DNA of 64,000 nt from Pseudomonadota bacterium (GTDB taxonomy: Bacteria > Pseudomonadota > Alphaproteobacteria > Acetobacterales > Acetobacteraceae): positions 62,001 through 126,000 of the forward strand of contig JAJZSY010000001.1 of the NCBI GenBank assembly GCA_021849425.1. The letters run 5' to 3'. The notes below the pieces were generated by a model. The model searched no databases. It had not been told where the DNA came from and saw only the letters and a list, made by a program, of their open reading frames with translations. Of the stretch, positions 6,790 to 48,844 are shown piece by piece (the first letter of the stretch is position 1; each line of letters starts with the position of its first letter). A program made the translations under genes and the position numbers.

Positions 6790-8403
6790 ATGACCTCTGG
6801 AACCGTCATCTCCGTCGCGCCCGGCCTCCCCGCTCCACCGCCGCCTCAGGGCGGCAGCCAGATCTCGGCGCCGTCCAGCGCTGAGGGAAGGGACAAAAGC
6901 TCGGCCGCCACCGCCTCCGGCACCGCCAGCAGCCAACCCTCCTCGACGACACCGTCCACCGCGCCACGCCTATCGGCGGTCGCAAATGGACAGGCCGATG
7001 CAAAGACGACGGCGGGCAGCGGCCATGCGCCTTCCTTCGGCGCCGCGCTGGCCGGGGCGGCCAAAGGATCCGGTGAGGCGAAATCCACCGCCGCTGGCGG
7101 CACGGCCCAGGCCGCATCCAGTGCGAGCGCAGATCCCAAGGGCAAAACGTCCGGCAAAACGGCTGCTCGCCCTGCCGTCGATGCAGCGGGCGCGCCGTTG
7201 CAGATCGCGCAACCCGACCCTGGGGGAGCCCAGCCGGCGACGCCAGCCGCAGCGGCGCCGGCAAGTGCCTCTACCGGACAGGCGAAGGACAATTCGCACA
7301 AATCCGGTCACACCGCCTCGACATCTGGCGCAAGCGCGGCTCCAGCAAGCGCGCTCCCTGCCGCCCAGCCTGCAACGCCGCCAGCACCAACCGGGCCCGT
7401 CATCGCGATCGTGACCACGGCGGCGCACGCGGTCGCCAGCGGCCCAACGACCCCCGCAGCAGCCGACGGGAACGCTGCGCCATCGATTTCCGGCAAGCCG
7501 GCGGCCAGCAGCACCGCGACGACCTCGGCCTCCGGCAACACGTCCGCCGGCGCCGCGTCCTCCGCCGCGGCCGGTTCCGCCGGCAGCCCACCCTCCGCCG
7601 GACCGACACCTGCCGAAACAGCCCTGGCGCATGAGGCCGCGGCGCGGTTTCATATGGCGCTCGCCGCCGCCACGCCCGGGCACGCCGAGCCGGCCCATGC
7701 GAAACCGTCCTCAGCGGCCGGGACAACCGGACAACCCGGTACGACCGTATCGCCCGGAACCGTTTCCTCGCCCCTGCTCGCCGCATCGGCCGCGGCCCCG
7801 TCACAAACTGGCGGCGCAACTGCCTCGGGCGCTGCCGCAAGCGCCAGCCCGGCTTCGGCGTCGAGCCAGATTTCCGCGGCCCTGGTCAATGTCAGCAAGC
7901 TCGACGCCTCTCACGGCGCCGCCGGCGCGGCATCGGGCACCCGCCTGACCATCGCGCTGGCGCCGCCGGCTATCGGCACCGTCACGCTGCAGATCGACCG
8001 TCATGCCGATGGCAGCTCCTCGGTCACAATCGGGGCCAGCCATGCGCAAACGCTGCTCGACCTGCGGAACGACCATACGACTCTCGATCAGGTCCTGACC
8101 CAGGCCGGCCTGCCAGCAGCCAACCGGAGCATCAGCTTCAACCTGATCGAGCCGCGCGCGAGCACCGCAAGCCAGCCGCAACCCGGATTCGGCGGCGGCT
8201 TCGGGTTTTCCGGCGGCGCGCCCCAAGGTGGGTCTGCGGGGGGCTCTGGAGGGGGCTCCGGGGGCGGTTCGGCGCGAAACGCCGCGCCCGTTTACCAGGT
8301 CCCGTCCATTGCCGCCGGCCCCGCCACAACCTCTGTCGCGGAAGCCGTAGGGCTTCCGGCCAATGTGACGCTGCGCCGCTTCGGCGTGAATGTCATGGCC
8401 TGA
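6790..8403 (+). CDS. fliK: Flagellar hook-length control protein FliK-like
   Basis: The 537-residue product is Ala/Ser/Pro/Thr-rich and low-complexity for its first 370 residues, as in FliK rulers. It has a compact C-terminal Flg_hook domain at about 380-465 (LTIALAPPAIGTVTLQID, then LRNDHTTLDQVLTQAGL). A Gly-rich stretch follows. FliK measures hook length and switches the type III export gate to filament substrates. The ATG at 6790 is the only reasonable start in the region; no Shine-Dalgarno precedes it, and the sigma54-like promoter would place the transcript start beside it. The frame stays open back to 6523, but that part overlaps promoter DNA. flgD follows after 45 bases. Confidence 0.82.
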   Translation: MTSGTVISVAPGLPAPPPPQGGSQISAPSSAEGRDKSSAATASGTASSQPSSTTPSTAPRLSAVANGQADAKTTAGSGHAPSFGAALAGAAKGSGEAKSTAAGGTAQAASSASADPKGKTSGKTAARPAVDAAGAPLQIAQPDPGGAQPATPAAAAPASASTGQAKDNSHKSGHTASTSGASAAPASALPAAQPATPPAPTGPVIAIVTTAAHAVASGPTTPAAADGNAAPSISGKPAASSTATTSASGNTSAGAASSAAAGSAGSPPSAGPTPAETALAHEAAARFHMALAAATPGHAEPAHAKPSSAAGTTGQPGTTVSPGTVSSPLLAASAAAPSQTGGATASGAAASASPASASSQISAALVNVSKLDASHGAAGAASGTRLTIALAPPAIGTVTLQIDRHADGSSSVTIGASHAQTLLDLRNDHTTLDQVLTQAGLPAANRSISFNLIEPRASTASQPQPGFGGGFGFSGGAPQGGSAGGSGGGSGGGSARNAAPVYQVPSIAAGPATTSVAEAVGLPANVTLRRFGVNVMA

Positions 8404-8448
8404 CCGTTTGTTTCACCCGCCGTTCCGAATTCGATCCCAAAGGAGCCC

Positions 8449-9204
8449 ATGATGACCAGCAGCGTCGCCTCAGTCGCCTACCAGCAGAGCCAGCTGACCG
8501 CCGCCGCCAACGCCGCCGCTGCCGGGATCGGCGGCGCAAGCTCCAGCACGAGCGCCGCCAGCAGCGCGGCCGCGTCCAGCACCGGTGGCAGTTCGACGGC
8601 GAACGCCCTGAGTTCGCTCTCCTCGAACTACAACAACTTCCTGACCATGCTGACCACGCAGTTGCGCAATCAGGACCCCACCAACCCTGTCAGCTCAAGC
8701 CAGTTCACCTCCGAGCTGGTGCAGTTCTCGCAGGTCGAGCAGCAGATCAACACCAACCAGAGCCTGACGCAGTTGCTGCAACTCACCCAGGCGGGCGACC
8801 TTACCCAGGCCAGCGCGATGCTTGGCAGCAAGGTCACCGCAACATCGAGCCAGCTGCCGCTGCAGAACGGCACGGCGACGCTCAACTTCAATGCGCCCAC
8901 ATCCGGCCCGGTGGCGGTCGCGGTTTACAACAGCGCCGGCCAGCAGATTCTCGACAGCGCGATCAACGCCACCGCCGGCAGCAATTCCTGGACCTGGAAC
9001 GGCAAGGACGCGTCCGGCACGCAGATGCCGGACGGTGCCTATAACGTCGCCGTGGTCGAAGGCGGGGCGAATGGCGCCACCACCACCCTCCCCTTCACCA
9101 TCACCGGCACGGCCACCGGCGTGACGAGCAGCGCCAACAGCGTTTCGCTGCAACTCGGCAACGTCGCGATTCCCTTCACAGCTGTCACCAACGTCACGAA
9201 ATGA
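8449..9204 (+). CDS. flgD: Flagellar hook capping protein FlgD
   Basis: The 251-residue protein is the hook assembly cap. After an Ala/Ser-rich N-terminus comes the FlgD signature NNFLTMLTTQLRNQDPTNPVSS with QFTSELVQFSQVEQQINTN (about 62-104). Next is a FlgD Ig-like/Tudor region with TWNGKDASGTQMPDGAY. AAAGGAG precedes two adjacent ATG codons (8449 and 8452); the second has the better spacing, so the true protein may be one residue shorter. It is co-transcribed with fliK and followed by a GC-rich hairpin at 9212-9239. Confidence 0.93.
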   Translation: MMTSSVASVAYQQSQLTAAANAAAAGIGGASSSTSAASSAAASSTGGSSTANALSSLSSNYNNFLTMLTTQLRNQDPTNPVSSSQFTSELVQFSQVEQQINTNQSLTQLLQLTQAGDLTQASAMLGSKVTATSSQLPLQNGTATLNFNAPTSGPVAVAVYNSAGQQILDSAINATAGSNSWTWNGKDASGTQMPDGAYNVAVVEGGANGATTTLPFTITGTATGVTSSANSVSLQLGNVAIPFTAVTNVTK

Positions 9205-9211
9205 GATACGA

Positions 9212-9239
9212 CCGGCCGGGCGGTTCCCCGCCCGACCGG
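9212..9239 (+). terminator. GC-rich hairpin after flgD
   Basis: CCGG-x-CGGGCGG pairs with CCGCCCG-x-CCGG around a TTCC loop, eight bases after the flgD stop. No T-run follows, so it may terminate poorly alone or protect the 3' end. Confidence 0.5.
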
Positions 9240-9490
9240 CGCCAGCCCCCGATCTCCATCCCGCGGGCCAACTCCGTTTTCCCTGACGGGGGAAGCGCCC
9301 TCGCAGGCAGGTCGTGAATATGAATGGGGCCAAGCAAGAGAATCATCCGCTCCGGAAGGATCGGATGCTGCTCAGGTCTCGCGCATTGGTCTTATTGCGT
9401 CATAAATACTGACATAAAAGCCGTCCCCTGTCACCGGAGCACTTTCCGAGCCATCCGGATCGGATTCAGTGCGCTATAATATTGATAAAC

Positions 9491-9539
9491 AAAGCATCTT
9501 TACCCGATCAGATGTCTCCATCTGATCGGTTGATGCTTT
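9491..9539. repeat. Dispersed palindromic repeat, copy A
   Basis: Outer arms AAAGCATC and GATGCTTT enclose inner arms CCGATCAGATG and CATCTGATCGG around a TCTC loop. It is the same family as the copies near 34370, 46243 and 48732-48880. Such near-perfect palindromes fold into a long hairpin and resemble REP-type elements. Confidence 0.8.
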
Positions 9540-9893
9540 CGCAGCACGGCTGAGCCCGTCAGCGCCGCGCTGTATTTCAAAAATCGCATATCACTCCACG
9601 GACAGACGAGCCGGCCACCATGCCCTCACAACGGGCGCGACAGGTCGAGGACTGATTATGGTGGTTTTTCTGCTCCAAATTTTCTAAATCTCTGAAAACA
9701 TGACGTATTTTTATTTTTACAATCAAACGAAAAATAATTCGTATTATTTACCAAAGTGTAAATTATTCTATAAATTGTAAATATAGGATTACAATATTTT
9801 CTTTCTTAATATTTATCTTCTTACAGAATCAAATTGTCCCATCTCTTGTGCATTTAGAGTATTCGTTTATGTAAAACCGAGTGAATTATCTGA

Positions 9894-9914
9894 ATCGAAA
9901 CGAAACGGATAATT
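9894..9914. promoter_or_regulatory. Inverted repeat upstream of OmpR-type regulator
   Basis: AATTATC (9894-9900) and GATAATT (9908-9914) form an inverted repeat about 30 bases before the regulator ATG at 9943. Position and symmetry fit an operator, possibly autoregulatory. The flanking DNA is AT-rich, so chance symmetry is possible. Confidence 0.35.
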
Positions 9915-9942
9915 TTGATTACGAAATAATGAGGATACCTCG

Positions 9943-10767
9943 ATGAACTCGCTCTCCCAGAACGGCAAATTTGATATGGAAATTGATATAAAAAAATACA
10001 ACATATCTCTGTTCTGTGAATCTGAAGATATCAATATCGATTTTCCTGATAATTTATTTAATGTTAATTATTTTGAAATAAAAAATAATATCCAAAATAA
10101 TATCAAAGACAACATAATTGTAAGTGACGTATTTATATTTGTGTTGAACGGTGACAATTTTTCCTCTCTGGCCAGTATAACCGAGATTCGTGACCTGACG
10201 CGTAGGCCGATCATAGTCCTTGTAAAGAATTACAGCGAGGCGGTGGCTGTGACCCTGTTCCGGATCGGCGCCGACGAGGTTCTCGATGCCTCGATCGGCA
10301 TGCACGATCTGGAAATCCGCATCGGCAACATGGTCAGACGGCAGGCCAAACATGCCCCCAGAGACATGGAAACGCCCAGCGTCGCGATTGCGGATTTCCT
10401 GTTTCTCAACATCCGCAACCGTGCGGTGCTCCATGAAATTTTCACGCCCTATGAGCTGATGGCGCTCAGCCTCCTCGTGCGCAATGCCGACAAGATTCTG
10501 TCACGCGGCGACATGGCCTCAGCCATCAAGGGCCGAGCCGTCGGCTACAACGATCGCAGCATCGACAACCTCATGTCGCGTATCCGCAAGAAACTCCGCA
10601 ACCTTGGTCTTGAGAAATACAAGATCCGCAGTTTCAATTCCGTTGGCTATCACTTCATCTCCGGCGGCGAAAACTTCATCGCCGATCTCGACAACGCGCT
10701 GCAAACCCAGATTTACGCGGGCATGAATCCCCACGACCCCGAAACACCATCATCGGATACCGACTGA
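9943..10767 (+). CDS. Orphan OmpR/PhoB-type transcriptional regulator with degenerate receiver
   Basis: The product has 274 residues. Residues about 145-237 form a winged-helix DNA-binding domain of the OmpR/PhoB type (FTPYELMALSLLVRNADKILSRGDM, YNDRSIDNLMSRIRKKL, then VGYHF). The N-terminal 130 residues have a receiver-like layout ending LTRRPIIVLVKNYSEA and RIGADEVLD. However, the expected phospho-acceptor Asp strand reads VFIFVLNGDNF and the conserved Lys-Pro is missing, so phosphorylation is unlikely. AGGA lies before the ATG. Codons for residues 1-80 are AT-rich while the rest are normal high-GC, so the gene looks like a mosaic. No histidine kinase is adjacent. Its place between the flagellar cluster and a glycosyltransferase suggests control of motility or a surface glycan, but nothing proves that. 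Confidence 0.75.
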   Translation: MNSLSQNGKFDMEIDIKKYNISLFCESEDINIDFPDNLFNVNYFEIKNNIQNNIKDNIIVSDVFIFVLNGDNFSSLASITEIRDLTRRPIIVLVKNYSEAVAVTLFRIGADEVLDASIGMHDLEIRIGNMVRRQAKHAPRDMETPSVAIADFLFLNIRNRAVLHEIFTPYELMALSLLVRNADKILSRGDMASAIKGRAVGYNDRSIDNLMSRIRKKLRNLGLEKYKIRSFNSVGYHFISGGENFIADLDNALQTQIYAGMNPHDPETPSSDTD

Positions 10768-11136
10768 TAATCACGCCCCACGTTTGCGAACAGCAAAGAG
10801 GCGGCCTCCGCGCGGATGACGGATCGCGCGCGGAGGTCTGCACGTTCTCGCCGTGCATCTCCGCCGGGGCACATTGTCAGCCCCCAGGCCGATGGGAGAG
10901 CGATTGTCCTCATCAGCGACCCTGCAAAGCAGAATTATTTTTTAGATTTTATTGAAACAATTTGAATAATAAATAAAATTGTAATCAATCAAATATATTT
11001 TATCTATTTCATATAATACATATGATATTTTTTATATAGATAGTGAATTTATTCCTTCGTTCACCCGATATTCAAACTTGTATTATGTATTTTCATATTT
11101 TATCGGTCATGCGTTCAGACCACAGGAACCTGACAG
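10768..11136. other. Intergenic region with AT-rich core
   Basis: Apart from the hairpin at 10805-10836, the segment from about 10930 to 11108 is very AT-rich, unlike flanking DNA. It probably contains the promoter of the 11137-14479 chain. No convincing -35/-10 pair could be picked among the many A/T runs. Confidence 0.5.
10805..10836 (+). terminator. Hairpin after the OmpR-type regulator
   Basis: CCTCCGCGCG (10805-10814) and CGCGCGGAGG (10827-10836) form a ten-pair stem with a 12-base loop, 37 bases after the stop. No T-run follows, so it is a candidate terminator or 3' stabiliser only. Confidence 0.5.
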
Positions 11137-11193
11137 ATGAACAAAGATTGCACATCGCCCGGCTTCCGCAGAACTCCCGTTATCAACCCATGA
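11137..11193 (+). CDS. Possible 18-residue leader ORF
   Basis: A short frame encodes MNKDCTSPGFRRTPVINP and stops at TGA 11191-11193, overlapping the next ATG as ATGA. AGGA lies nine bases before its ATG, whereas the next gene has no ribosome site of its own. The arrangement fits a leader peptide that delivers ribosomes to the downstream start. The ORF is tiny and could be chance. Confidence 0.35.
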   Translation: MNKDCTSPGFRRTPVINP

Positions 11194-11513
11194 TCAAGAA
11201 GAGCCATGCGAGGCGGATCGCCGGTTCCTGCCTCAACCGGCTTGCCGATCTGGTTCGTCCCCATCAGCGGTTGCGGCGTCTGGCGCTGGCCTGCCTGCAC
11301 GCCACCCCCTGGCTCGACAGGTGGCAGCGCAGTCTCCGCCATCAATCGCTGGCCGGCGCCGCCGGCGAACGGGTAATCGGCAAGCCCCGACGGCCGCGCC
11401 CCACGATCCGGGCCAGGCAGTTCCACCATCGCCGCGATCTCGCAAACCTCAGCGCCACGGCCGGACGACTGTATCTGCAAATGCTGCGCGCCAGCGCCAA
11501 CCGGCAGGGCTGA
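11190..11513 (+). CDS. Small basic protein upstream of glycosyltransferase
   Basis: From the ATG at 11190 the product is 107 residues, very rich in Arg and His, with no membrane segment or recognised domain. The C-terminal part (LSATAGRLYLQMLRA) loosely resembles tails seen at the ends of some bacterial glycosyltransferases. The stop overlaps the next gene's ATG as TGATG, and its own start overlaps the short ORF before it. The frame also extends upstream to ATG 11109 without a ribosome site. High GC in third positions supports coding. Function is unknown; coupling suggests it is made together with the glycosyltransferase. Confidence 0.5.
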   Translation: MIKKSHARRIAGSCLNRLADLVRPHQRLRRLALACLHATPWLDRWQRSLRHQSLAGAAGERVIGKPRRPRPTIRARQFHHRRDLANLSATAGRLYLQMLRASANRQG

Positions 11514-14479
11514 TGCGCCTCGTCATCGATGTTCAGGGCGCGCAGACCAAAGGCAGCGCGACACGCGGCATCGGCCGCTATACCCTGGCTCTGACACAGG
11601 CGATCGCCCGGCTGCGCGGCAACCACGAAATCATCGTCGTCGCCAGCGATGCCTTCCCCGAGAGTCTCGCCCGGCTGCGCAACGGCATCGCCGATCTGCT
11701 GCCACCGGGCTGCTTCCGGGTCTGGCAGTGCCCACGGGGTCTGAGCCCGCATACCCCGGCCGGACTCGCCCGCAGGCGGGCCGCCGAAATGGTCAGGGAA
11801 GCTTTCCTCGCCGCGCTCAGGCCTGACGCGATCCTGATCTGCAGCCTGTTCGAAGGCGGCGACGATGATTGCGTCGCCAGCATCGGCATGCTGCACGACA
11901 TCCCCACCGCGGTGGTGCTCTACGACCTGATCCCGCTCATCCACCGTGAAATCTACCTCTCGCCCTGCCCCGCACGGGAAGCCTGGTACGAGGCGCAGCT
12001 CGCGCATCTCCGGCGTGCCGATCTCGTGCTCGGCATTTCCGGCTCGACCTGCCGCGAGGCCGAAACCATGCTCGGCCTGCCGGCGTCGCGCATCGCCGCC
12101 ATCGGCGCCGCCGCCGACAAGGCGTTCCACCGCGAGGCGCTGCCGGCGGATGCGGTGCAGGCGGTCCGCTCCCGGCACGGGCTTCGCGAGCGCTTCGTGA
12201 TGTATACCGGCGGCATCGACCACCGGAAGATCCTCGATCGGCTGGTCGCCGCCTTCGCCCGCCTGCCGGCGCACCTGCGCGCGGCGCACCAGCTCGTTAT
12301 TGTCTGCGCCGCCGACGCCGCGGCGCGCGAGCGGCTGCAAACCCTCGCCCGGCGGGAAGGGCTGGGGCCGGCCGATCTGGTGCTGCCCGGCTTTGTCCCG
12401 GAAGACGAGCTGATCGCGCTCTACCAGGCCTGCACCCTCTTCGTGTTCCCGAGCTGGCACGAGGGCTTCGGCCTGCCGGCGCTTGAAGCCATGGCCTGCG
12501 GCGCGCCGGTGATCGCCAGCAACACATCGAGCTTGCCCGAAGTCGTCGGGTGCGACGACGCGCTGTTCGACCCGATGGAGACCGGGGCAATCGCGGCGAA
12601 ACTCGAACAGGCGCTCGACGATGAGCCGTTCCGCCGCCGCCTTGCCGCGCACGGACTTCGCCAGGCGACGACCTTCTCGTGGCACGCCACCGCCCGTCGC
12701 GCGCTCGATGCCATCGACGCCCTGCCACGCCGCCAGCTGGCTCCGGCGCCCACGCCACAGCGCCCGCGCCTCGCCTATGTCTCGCCGCTCCCGCCCGAGC
12801 GCAGCGGCATCAGCGAGTACAGCGCCGAACTCCTGCCCGAACTCGCCCGGTTCTACGAGATCGAACTGATCGTCCGGCAGGACGAGGTTCTGCCCGCGTG
12901 GCTCGGCACCCAGTTTCCCATTCGCACGCCGGATACGCTGCGCGAGACCCCTGCCCGCTACGATCGCGTGCTGTATCATGTCGGCAATTCCGCCTTCCAC
13001 GAGCACATGTTCGACCTGCTGGCCGAAGTGCCGGGCGTCGTCGTGCTGCACGACGTCTGTCTCTCCGGCGTCATGCGGTGGATGGAGGACAACCGGCAGA
13101 GCGCCGGATTCTTCGCCCGCGCGCTCTATCGTAGCCACGGCTATGCCGCCGTCGCGCGCGGCACGCGCGACGGCGGCGAGGGACTCGCCCCCTACGCCTG
13201 CAATCTCGACGTGCTCGAAAACGCGGTGGGGGTCATCGTCCACAGCGCCGGCGCGGCGCGGCTGGCCGCGGAGATCCACGGCCCGGCGATGGTGCGCGAC
13301 TGGCAGGTGATCCCGCTGCTGCGCACCCCAGCGCCACCGATCCCGCGCGGCGCGGCGCGGGCAAGGCTTGGCCTGCCCGCCTCGGCCCTGCTCACCTGCA
13401 GCTTCGGTATCCTGGCGGAAACCAAGCTGAACCACGCCCTGCTCGATGCCTGGCTCGCCAGCGGGCTGGCCGAAAACCCCGACGCCCTGCTCGTCTTCGT
13501 CGGCGAATCGAGCAGCGATGCCTACACCGCCGCCCTGCTCGACCGCATCGCCGGCAGCCCCGCTGCCGGGCGTATCGCGATCACCGGATGGACCGACGCC
13601 GCCACCTATCGCGACTATCTCGCCGCCGCGGACATCGCGGTGCAGCTGCGCGCCGCCTCGCGCGGGGAAACCTCCGCCGCGGTGCTCGACTGTCTGAACA
13701 GCGGCATTGCCACCATCGTCAACGCCAACGGATCGATGGCCGAACTCGATGAGAGCATCGCCGTGAAGCTGCCGGAGGATTTCGAACCGGCAAGTCTGGC
13801 CGCCGCCCTCGAACGCCTCGCCGCCGACACCGCGGCACGGCAGGCACTCGGCGGCCATGCGCGCGACCATGTCCGTCACCACCACGCACCTCGCGCCTGC
13901 GCCGAGGCCTATCATCAGGCGATCGAGACGGCATGGCGGCGGGCGCTGATGTCGGTCCAGGGGGCGATCGCGCGGATCGGCCAGCTCGCCCCCCCGTTAT
14001 CGCGGGCCGAACTCGGCGAGGCCGCCGCATGCCTCGCGCAGAACCGCGAACACGGCGGACTGCGTCAGCTGCTCGTTGAAATCCCGCCCGAACCCGGGCC
14101 CGACGCCGCCCAGCGCAGCCTGCTGGCCAGGCTGCTGCGCGCGCCGCCAGCGGGATTCCGGGTCGAGCCGATCCGCTTCGAGGCGGCGTCCTGCCGCTAC
14201 GCGAGATGCTGGACGATGGAGCTGCTCGACCTGCCCCGCGCCGGCTTCACCGATGATCACGTCGAGGCGCATGATGGCGATATCGTGCTGTCGCTGCCCG
14301 CAGGGCACGCGATGCAGGAGACACGGGACGCATTCACCCGCCGCTGGCAGGCCCTTGGCATCCGGTTCGGCCAATTCGACGATTACATCCGATCGGATGA
14401 TGCTCCCTACGCTGCCCCGCGCTGTCCGCCGCAGCGCCTCAGCCCCGCGGCGCGGCCGCGCGCGCAAGCCGGTCGTTGA
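11513..14479 (+). CDS. Two-domain family 4 glycosyltransferase
   Basis: The 988-residue protein contains two GT-B units. The first (about 1-395) begins MRLVIDVQGAQT and carries the GT4 donor-site motif HEGFGLPALEAMACGAPV near 316. The second starts near 417 (RPRLAYVSPLPPERSGISEYS) and has a weaker donor site, RGETSAAVLDCLNSG, near 717. The last 170 residues match nothing I recognise. Tandem GT4 proteins build short sugar chains on LPS, capsule or flagellin from nucleotide sugars in the cytoplasm. The start overlaps the upstream stop as TGATG. The 3' end contains a half-copy of the dispersed repeat (14386-14405) and runs 41 bases into the 3' end of the convergent tsaC gene. Proximity to flagellin makes flagellin glycosylation one option. 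Confidence 0.85.
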   Translation: MRLVIDVQGAQTKGSATRGIGRYTLALTQAIARLRGNHEIIVVASDAFPESLARLRNGIADLLPPGCFRVWQCPRGLSPHTPAGLARRRAAEMVREAFLAALRPDAILICSLFEGGDDDCVASIGMLHDIPTAVVLYDLIPLIHREIYLSPCPAREAWYEAQLAHLRRADLVLGISGSTCREAETMLGLPASRIAAIGAAADKAFHREALPADAVQAVRSRHGLRERFVMYTGGIDHRKILDRLVAAFARLPAHLRAAHQLVIVCAADAAARERLQTLARREGLGPADLVLPGFVPEDELIALYQACTLFVFPSWHEGFGLPALEAMACGAPVIASNTSSLPEVVGCDDALFDPMETGAIAAKLEQALDDEPFRRRLAAHGLRQATTFSWHATARRALDAIDALPRRQLAPAPTPQRPRLAYVSPLPPERSGISEYSAELLPELARFYEIELIVRQDEVLPAWLGTQFPIRTPDTLRETPARYDRVLYHVGNSAFHEHMFDLLAEVPGVVVLHDVCLSGVMRWMEDNRQSAGFFARALYRSHGYAAVARGTRDGGEGLAPYACNLDVLENAVGVIVHSAGAARLAAEIHGPAMVRDWQVIPLLRTPAPPIPRGAARARLGLPASALLTCSFGILAETKLNHALLDAWLASGLAENPDALLVFVGESSSDAYTAALLDRIAGSPAAGRIAITGWTDAATYRDYLAAADIAVQLRAASRGETSAAVLDCLNSGIATIVNANGSMAELDESIAVKLPEDFEPASLAAALERLAADTAARQALGGHARDHVRHHHAPRACAEAYHQAIETAWRRALMSVQGAIARIGQLAPPLSRAELGEAAACLAQNREHGGLRQLLVEIPPEPGPDAAQRSLLARLLRAPPAGFRVEPIRFEAASCRYARCWTMELLDLPRAGFTDDHVEAHDGDIVLSLPAGHAMQETRDAFTRRWQALGIRFGQFDDYIRSDDAPYAAPRCPPQRLSPAARPRAQAGR
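14386..14405 (-). repeat. Half-copy of dispersed repeat inside the glycosyltransferase gene
   Basis: The minus strand reads AGCATCATCCGATCGGATG with one extra flanking base. This equals the left half of the copy at 34370. It encodes IRSDDA near the glycosyltransferase C-terminus, so the tail may derive from a repeat insertion. Confidence 0.6.
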
Positions 14480-34371: not shown

Positions 34372-34415
34372 AGCATCATCCGATCGGATGGAGTCATCTG
34401 ATCGGAAACCGCTCT
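34370..34415. repeat. Dispersed palindromic repeat, copy B
   Basis: AGAGCATCATCCGATCGGATG on the left pairs imperfectly with TCATCTGATCGG and a degenerate GCTCT arm. The right end overlaps the ugd stop codon (34414-34416), so it can form the 3' hairpin of that operon. Confidence 0.75.
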
Positions 34416-46242: not shown

Positions 46243-46291
46243 AAGCATCTCTGTCCGATCAGATGACTCCATCTGATCGGACGTTGCTCTA
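46243..46291. repeat. Dispersed palindromic repeat, copy C
   Basis: Outer AAGCATC with a degenerate GTTGCTCT arm and inner CCGATCAGATG/CATCTGATCGG arms match copy A. It lies between the DUF5666 gene and the heat-shock gene on the same strand and can fold as a terminator-like hairpin. Confidence 0.75.
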
Positions 46292-48733: not shown

Positions 48734-48780
48734 AGCATCATCCGATCAGAGGGAATCATCTGATCGGATAAAGATGCTCT
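48732..48780. repeat. Dispersed palindromic repeat, copy D (array unit 1)
   Basis: Outer arms AGAGCATC/GATGCTCT and inner arms CCGATCAGA/TCTGATCGG form a near-complete palindrome. It starts at the last base of the RraA-like stop codon (TAG). Confidence 0.85.
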
Positions 48781-48796
48781 AATCATCGATATCAAA

Positions 48797-48844
48797 CAGC
48801 ATCATCCGATCAGAGGGAATCATCTGATCGGATAAAGATGCTCT
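48797..48844. repeat. Dispersed palindromic repeat, copy E (array unit 2)
   Basis: Nearly identical to copy D and repeated at a period of about 65 bases. The spacers are similar too (AATCATCGATATCA against AATCGTCTATATCA), so the array arose by tandem duplication of repeat plus spacer. Confidence 0.85.

Follow-up and report, generated by a model that had tools for sequence, protein, structure and literature searches.

The open reading frame at positions 9943 to 10767 of the forward strand raises two questions: whether the regulator that it encodes still depends on phosphorylation, and whether the gene was assembled from more than one source. The first-pass annotation of the window (the entire 64-kb stretch of DNA analyzed, with a GC content of 68.3%) had read it as a phosphorylation-independent regulator, perhaps put together from two sources. 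The frame has an ATG start and codes for 274 amino acids, and its product was assigned as an orphan OmpR/PhoB-type regulator with a pseudo-receiver on the basis of Pfam, NCBIfam, profile alignment, and predicted structure.

The window protein belongs to a family of four, the other members being a paralogue in the same genome (G000) and copies on plasmids pACMV1 of A. multivorum (L037) and pACRY01 of A. cryptum (L036), both hosts being Acidiphilium, a genus of acid-loving bacteria. It is 26 to 31% identical to its three relatives, while the two plasmid-borne regulators are 41% identical to each other. Among 100 related genomes and 299 genomes of Acetobacteraceae, family members were found only in the window's genome (two copies) and in G007 (one copy). 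With the window protein as query in the 100 genomes, the paralogue was recovered at an E value of 2.6e-27 and the G007 copy at 2.4e-22, the next match lying at 1.8e-11. A family-profile query of the 299 genomes, in which no more than 8 candidates were scored for each, recovered the same three loci, which are themselves rows of the query profile, at 1e-108 to 1e-121, followed by the next match at 4e-19. The window's genome belongs to a relative of Acidiphilium; of its 12 congeners G007 alone has a member, on a contig that corresponds to plasmid NC_015178.1 of A. multivorum AIU301.

Across 72,556 plasmid records the family was present in two, pACMV1 and pACRY01. The window protein itself matched 238 plasmid records at 1e-5; among the 20 matches listed, H1 and H3 are family members and the rest are less than 32% identical, those that are annotated being response regulators. 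No relatives were found in viral_contigs, and two phage records, both annotated rstA, matched the A. cryptum protein at 3e-4. In genome_contigs, 32 loci matched at 23 to 34% identity; 31 of them hold a receiver, in every case with an acceptor aspartate, and the remaining one (L077) consists of the DNA-binding part only. For phylogeny, 88 proteins were collected, of which 80 were left once identical ones were removed, giving 84 rows with the four members; the tree was computed from 70 OmpR-type proteins, leaving out 14 rows that were near-copies, second ORFs of a locus, or fragments. The four members clustered together, with support of 100/98, on a long branch, and a possible false join was flagged for the family and another dead-receiver group, both of which have long branches.

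Other receivers without a complete catalytic site were encountered in Acetobacteraceae. L005, L102, and L108 make up a separate OmpR-type pseudo-receiver group, with Gly at the acceptor and Arg in place of Lys, and a nearby group (L003, L056, L062, L076, and L085) keeps Asp and Lys without a Pro after the Lys. Separately, CtrA-like regulators, among them one in the window's genome (L218, G000:C51:60620-61291) as well as L212, L217, and L219 to L222, lack the phospho-Asp by eye: all seven sequences inspected have another residue at the acceptor (R, R, S, R, A, E, and N), and L223 and L224 are two further matches. Eleven of 12 genomes had only one CtrA-like match at an E value of 1e-30, and the L212 protein (as L084) scored best with the NCBIfam CtrA model, reaching 223 bits where the cut-off is 350. 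If these were the sole CtrA proteins, the master cell-cycle regulator of Acetobacteraceae may have turned phosphorylation-independent; a literature search of titles and abstracts found no report of a CtrA without the phospho-Asp in this family of bacteria.

Domain searches separated the two ends of the window protein. Trans_reg_C matched residues 168 to 238 with 41.9 bits over a cut-off of 26.2, which bears out the earlier statement that the winged-helix end is intact; the DNA-binding domain as a whole covers approximately residues 161 to 243 (positions 10423 to 10671, forward strand), with block means of pLDDT between 76 and 93. Response_reg gave no match at E values up to 1, and the sole other Pfam row was an insignificant match to DUF6559. 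Thirty-five NCBIfam models matched at E values up to 1, and the 25 listed were all response regulators with scores far under their cut-offs. By phmmer, the best solved relatives were KdpE chains. This pattern extends to the family, where Trans_reg_C exceeded its cut-off in all four members and the Response_reg cut-off of 30.2 bits was reached by none; the pACMV1 copy had no Response_reg match at 0.01, and the other two relatives scored 18.4 and 21.9 bits.

Despite the absent Pfam match, a receiver fold was predicted for the N-terminal half. The AlphaFold2 model of the window protein, based on an alignment of 16 sequences, consists of a receiver followed by a winged helix (mean pLDDT 68.2, pTM 0.45; 123 of 274 residues below 70), with the pseudo-receiver at approximately residues 1 to 133 (positions 9943 to 10341, forward strand) and strands beta1, beta3, beta4, and beta5 at residues 21 to 25, 63 to 68, 90 to 94, and 112 to 115. 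An alignment-free AlphaFold2 model was poor (pLDDT 48), yet placed strands at 21 to 25, 63 to 69, and 90 to 95. When the model was compared with VIA-align 2, the best 19 of the 50 rows listed were receiver-type chains (Z 12.3 to 13.3, rmsd 2.2 to 3.2, 103 to 117 residues). Full-length Foldseek matches included KdpE, CosR, and 2hqr, labeled "atypical orphan response regulator," which we take to be HP1043. Canonical response regulators predominate in both lists, and the absence of Rem and FtcR from them is uninformative. The structure prediction that had been suggested for this protein is consistent with the OmpR/PhoB architecture: the C-terminal winged helix was found, and the N-terminal (beta-alpha)5 receiver fold is predicted, with low confidence in places.

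The catalytic residues of this receiver were located by aligning the four members to 14 canonical proteins of the OmpR type, a set hand-picked as canonical, so that its agreement at the catalytic columns (14 of 14) is by construction. In the profile-profile alignment, which ran without gaps through beta3, Val67 of the window protein (codon 67, positions 10141 to 10143) fell on the phospho-Asp; phmmer alignment with KdpE gave the same result. In this register the family residues, listed with the window protein first, are V/Y/Y/Y at the acceptor, V/S/S/S at the conserved Thr (codon 94, positions 10222 to 10224), A/S/S/N at the Lys, and S/V/A/N at the following Pro, the last two being an Ala-Ser pair in the window protein (codons 116 and 117, positions 10288 to 10293). 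Thus, where the canonical set has the acceptor Asp with Thr/Ser and Lys, the window protein has Val67, Val94, and Ala116. The canonical Pro at D+4 and Gly at D+8 are likewise gone, and inspection of the four-member alignment by eye showed no conservation of the acidic pair that ends beta1. GAD is kept in all four members. The residues at K+2 are Ile/Asn/Ile/Val; Ile and Val at this position are among those said in a passage of PMC12632262 to shift CheY to active forms.

The register of the acceptor was disputed. Asp62 (codon 62, positions 10126 to 10128), which is invariant in the family, was placed on the acceptor Asp by MAFFT in 10 of 12 runs, with Val67 there in the other two, and also in alignment A3. 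Of two single-sequence HMM alignments, the one made with the window protein put Asp62 on the acceptor by means of a three-residue insert, whereas the one made with the paralogue chose Tyr67. On the other side, beta3 begins just past Asp62 in both AlphaFold2 models (63 to 68 or 63 to 69), even though A3, with Asp62 on the acceptor, was the input of the first model. The distance from Asp62 to Pro89 is also 27 residues in all four members; in the canonical protein L050, an Asp at the start of beta3 lies 27 residues, and the phospho-Asp 22 residues, ahead of the same Pro. Because beta3 follows Asp62 in both models and this spacing is constant, the Val67 register was preferred, and Asp62 as a surviving acceptor was provisionally rejected on these grounds and on the profile-profile and KdpE alignments, against the preference of MAFFT. 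Asp62 probably lies at the start of beta3 and is not the phospho-acceptor. The Thr and Lys are absent from the window protein whichever register is used, and the Lys and following Pro are lost in all four members. Of the earlier claim that the receiver lacks both the phospho-Asp and Lys-Pro positions, the loss of Lys-Pro stands, and the loss of the Asp holds for all four members in the preferred register.

The dimer face of the receiver was compared with that of KdpE, for which intermolecular pairs Asp97-Arg111, Asp96-Arg118, and Asp92-Arg113 are described in PMC4773095. Mapped by offset from the acceptor, they fall at positions 112-126, 111-133, and 107-128 of the family. All four members keep the first pair, as E/D/D/D with Arg. 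At the second, Asp is present in all four and Arg in the window protein only. The third is reversed: position 107 on alpha4 (codon 107, positions 10261 to 10263), which is Glu in 13 and Asp in 1 of the 14 reference proteins, is Arg in all four members, and position 128 on alpha5 (codon 128, positions 10324 to 10326), Arg in 10 and Lys in 4 of the reference set, is Glu in the three relatives and Gly in the window protein. Among the 80 nonmember rows, 55 have an acid-base pair at 107/128 and one has Arg-Glu; the latter (L002) is simply the family's own A. multivorum copy, and the reversal thus occurs in none of the 79 other OmpR-type rows. The Lys87-Glu107 pair, called key in PhoB, TorR, and YycF in a section of PMC4511772, has its equivalent at 102/122, where it is lost in all four members (A-D, E-I, V-D, and A-D). 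BfmR tolerates the absence of an interface pair, as stated in part of PMC4888885. Since the 107-128 pair is broken (Arg-Gly) in the window protein and the 102/122 pair is lost throughout, dimerization through alpha4-beta5-alpha5 is not assured. It is a speculative and rather doubtful idea that the family rebuilt this face to avoid mixing with host OmpR proteins; if true, the charge swap, the dead site, and plasmid carriage would amount to a portable, self-pairing regulator that works free of phosphate and is insulated from host two-component signaling. Of all the features of the family, the reversed charges on alpha4 and alpha5 are the most interesting.

As to the origin of the gene, its first 80 codons are indeed AT-rich, as had been noted: GC content is 0.29 in codons 1 to 40 and 0.27 in codons 41 to 80, against 0.49 to 0.61 in later blocks. 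GC at third codon positions (GC3) was 0.35 over codons 1 to 83 and 0.74 over the rest, a break matched in strength by none of 1,000 shuffles. Segmentation delimited an AT-rich island at 9677 to 11104 that encloses the gene, made up of a 26% GC stretch covering the upstream region and approximately codons 1 to 74 (9677 to 10163), a core of 58% GC (10163 to 10926), and a 17% GC stretch downstream of the gene (10926 to 11104). Twenty 240-bp stretches of the window, taken in 30-bp steps, were below 35% GC, and all start at 9571 to 10021 or 10861 to 10951. The relatives do not repeat this break. In the paralogue, GC3 changes after codon 173, from 0.34 to 0.84 (again 0 of 1,000 shuffles as strong), and both plasmid copies are rich in AT along their whole length (25 to 36% GC per 40 codons for pACRY01 and 19 to 38% for pACMV1), with no significant GC3 change (173 and 621 of 1,000 shuffles as strong, respectively).

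The break after codon 83 is sharp, and a true fusion would have joined an AT-rich N-terminal piece at about that codon to the latter half of a response regulator rich in GC. In keeping with this, residues 1 to 83 taken alone came only 20th of 79 when scored with the family profile and were weakly similar to the paralogue only (shuffle P of 0.034, compared with 0.34 and 0.38 for the plasmid copies). However, in leave-one-out comparisons with the profile of the other three members, which used 78 of the 80 nonfamily rows (the A. multivorum duplicate L002 and the fragment L198_-1 being dropped), residues 1 to 140 and 141 to the end each ranked 1 of 79, as did the N-terminal parts of each of the other three members. 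Residues 81 to 140 also ranked first, so the part of the receiver with normal GC content belongs to the family and not to the host. Asp62, Ile65, and Glu81 of the N-terminal part are invariant in the four-member alignment, the 27-residue spacing from Asp62 to Pro89 crosses the break, the strands flank it as in a receiver in both models, and a joint there would cut the receiver in mid-fold. A fusion is therefore very unlikely. The same joint, sought in relatives, was absent: the paralogue changes elsewhere and the plasmid copies not at all. Uniform composition in close relatives had been named in the first-pass annotation as evidence against its reading, and the plasmid copies show it, although the relatives are only 26 to 31% identical to the window protein. 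Breakpoints that differ between two copies and are missing from two others favor uneven amelioration or conversion over a shared fusion joint. Judging by composition, assembly from two sources is not supported, and the data fit one acquired AT-rich gene that may be adapting unevenly to a GC-rich chromosome.

It is likewise unlikely that the island is functionless acquired DNA in decay. Its AT richness, the patchy presence of the family, the low identity between copies, and the transposase genes that adjoin both plasmid copies are what a remnant would leave. Yet all four copies are intact frames of 268 to 274 amino acids, and the DNA-binding domain, at 33 to 47% identity among members, is overall better conserved than the rest of the protein. 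At identities as low as these, neutral frames would be broken; the intact frames therefore imply selection.

Sequences flanking the gene were compared among 13 genomes of the genus. The downstream flank matched nothing except itself and a 41-bp stretch in G006. The upstream flank matched a dispersed 101-bp repeat in the two family-holding genomes, G000 and G007, where shorter pieces also occur; three other congeners (G001, G009, and G010) have short pieces only and eight have none. Within the window the repeat lies at 9437 to 9537 (forward strand), with shorter pieces at 46243 to 46280, 48734 to 48842 (two), and 34372 to 34405. By eye it resembles REP/BIME elements, being composed of two imperfect hairpins that are often bounded by TA and CTA, and with 40 candidates scored in each genome it gave at least 46 matches in G000 (that of the window included) and at least 32 in G007, some in tandem. 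Intergenic repeats often sit directly behind genes, and the copy approximately 490 bp upstream of the paralogue lies directly behind an MCP gene; for this reason the repeat was taken as unrelated to the regulator. Between 9200 and 11400, five direct and four inverted repeat families were found, none with copies at both ends of the island. A mobile cassette and shared flanks were rejected on these results. A shared operator was also rejected: 7- to 9-mers common to the AT-rich upstream regions barely exceeded those of first-order resampled sequences (best P of 0.033 and 0.047, window versus paralogue, in 12 comparisons), three of the four members being AT-rich upstream and L036 GC-rich. Rfam found nothing near its gathering score at 8400 to 12000.

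The gene order in the window is flagellin, a flagellin-like gene (Flagellin_C only), flgK, a flgE-type gene, fliK, flgD, the regulator, a glycosyltransferase, Sua5, rbfA, infB, ylxR, and nusA, where fliK was assigned by position and composition, infB by eye, and the other neighbors by scanning. The regulator begins 738 bp downstream of flgD and precedes the 1,052-amino-acid glycosyltransferase frame. No kinase is encoded by the seven scanned window neighbors, flgE, flgD, or the glycosyltransferase gene, in agreement with the earlier observation that none is adjacent, and none was present among the scanned or annotated neighbors of any of the four members. The position between flagellar and glycosyltransferase genes was also described correctly for the window; it is not conserved, as tblastn of 1.5-kb flanks (less at contig ends) detected the regulator downstream of flgD in none of nine congeners with a flgD locus. 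The genes further downstream of flgD in those nine are others. The genes that follow flgD (from about 9204 in the window) vary among most of the nine, matching by eye in a few pairs only, and the closest A. multivorum relative of the glycosyltransferase lies approximately 140 kb from flgD. The site downstream of flgD is a recurrent rearrangement point.

Around the other members, the paralogue adjoins a PAS-PAS-MCP gene, and on the plasmids an H-NOX/EAL gene pair precedes the regulator at distances of approximately 2 and 4 kb. Between the two plasmids this H-NOX/EAL block shows 97.8% identity over 2,495 bp (proteins, 97%), whereas the regulators are only 41% identical, and different transposases separate the pair from the regulator on pACRY01 and pACMV1. 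The regulators therefore have separate histories, and their linkage to the block is not a co-inherited unit; from these identities, the plasmid regulator has apparently been replaced, or evolves much faster than its neighbors. Motility or c-di-GMP-type neighbors are found at all four sites, a theme picked afterwards, and by rough arithmetic about 8% of G000, which has 9 MCP and 13 EAL loci, is within 5 kb of one. The nearby motility, chemotaxis, and c-di-GMP genes are a weak pointer to targets.

Two more specific roles were weighed against this background. A protein with a dead receiver and no kinase in sight, encoded 738 bp past flgD in a flagellin-flgK-flgE-fliK-flgD cluster, recalls Rem, described in part of PMC9812332 as an aspartate-less OmpR-like flagellar activator, and could be a master regulator of the Rem/FtcR type that turns on hook and basal-body genes. 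Such a role is highly improbable, as the regulator is missing from downstream of flgD in all nine congeners with that locus, the family occurs in G007 alone of the 12 congeners and there on a plasmid, and flagellar structural genes are not beside the other three members. Alternatively, the pseudo-receiver might respond to a ligand, for example in c-di-GMP- or NO-linked signaling, as VpsT or FleQ does with c-di-GMP. The H-NOX/EAL genes near the plasmid copies, the PAS-PAS-MCP gene beside the paralogue, and the flagellar genes beside the window copy agree with this idea, and pseudo-receiver mechanisms of such a type exist according to a section of PMC12632262. We nevertheless regard it as quite unlikely, because it was chosen after the fact, with about 8% of G000 close to an MCP or EAL locus, and because the H-NOX/EAL linkage to the regulator was not inherited as a unit.

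Overall, we favor, with a probability of roughly 60%, the reading that the window protein is an orphan transcription factor of the OmpR/PhoB type that works independently of phosphorylation, encoded by what would be an acquired AT-rich accessory gene of Acidiphilium. Its independence from phosphorylation, as first proposed, is well supported at the sequence level by the loss of catalytic residues, the retained DNA-binding domain, and the lack of a kinase among the neighbors examined; the catalytic site is degenerate in all four members, all of which keep the winged helix and part of the alpha4-beta5-alpha5 face. Against this reading stand the middling quality of the model, the dispute over the register by MAFFT and one single-sequence HMM alignment, and the failure of the profile to recognize residues 1 to 83. 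On the favored reading, the gene would have been acquired horizontally as an AT-rich accessory gene that now resides on plasmids and, in two copies, in the window's genome, with the DNA-binding part having drifted or been converted toward host composition and the 5' part having stayed AT-rich. The receiver would serve as a permanent dimerization module and no longer as a phospho-switch: the protein would probably pair via alpha4-beta5-alpha5, its two winged helices would bind tandem half-sites, and its activity may be set by abundance, or by a binding partner or ligand, rather than by a histidine kinase.

The control of bacterial pseudo-receivers between on and off states is called a mystery in a passage of a 2025 review (PMC12632262). 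This tiny plasmid-linked family could offer a compact test case for the turning of a receiver from a switch into a fixed dimer, as the catalytic residues are lost in all four members and the interface charge pair is reversed in three; apart from that interest in pseudo-receivers, the gene is an ordinary accessory regulator. Among the titles and abstracts retrieved from the open-access literature, none described these Acidiphilium proteins.

Among known systems, the canonical regulators KdpE, PhoB, and CreB have the same domain order and are among the best sequence and fold matches of the window protein, but they possess the DD, D, T, and K catalytic set that its family is without. Rem of rhizobia and FtcR of Brucella are, like the window protein, aspartate-less OmpR-like proteins encoded near flagellar genes; the location of the window gene is not conserved in the genus, and the gene was not found in most flagellated congeners. 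The window family also resembles the pseudo-receiver or aspartate-less regulators (ALR) of the OmpR type, ChxR, HP1043/HsrA, CosR, and RitR, which are likewise orphans whose receiver fold has lost catalytic residues and is joined to an OmpR-type winged helix. Passages of PMC12632262 and PMC3960148 document dimers of ChxR and HP1043 that form independently of phosphorylation, and OmpR-type aspartate-less regulators are put at 609 sequences, or 2% of that architecture, in a section of PMC4395418. Compared with these four, the window family is distant in sequence and narrow in range, and Response_reg stays under its cut-off in every member. Judged by its sequence, the window protein nonetheless fits within the pseudo-receiver or aspartate-less atypical response regulators, a known class.
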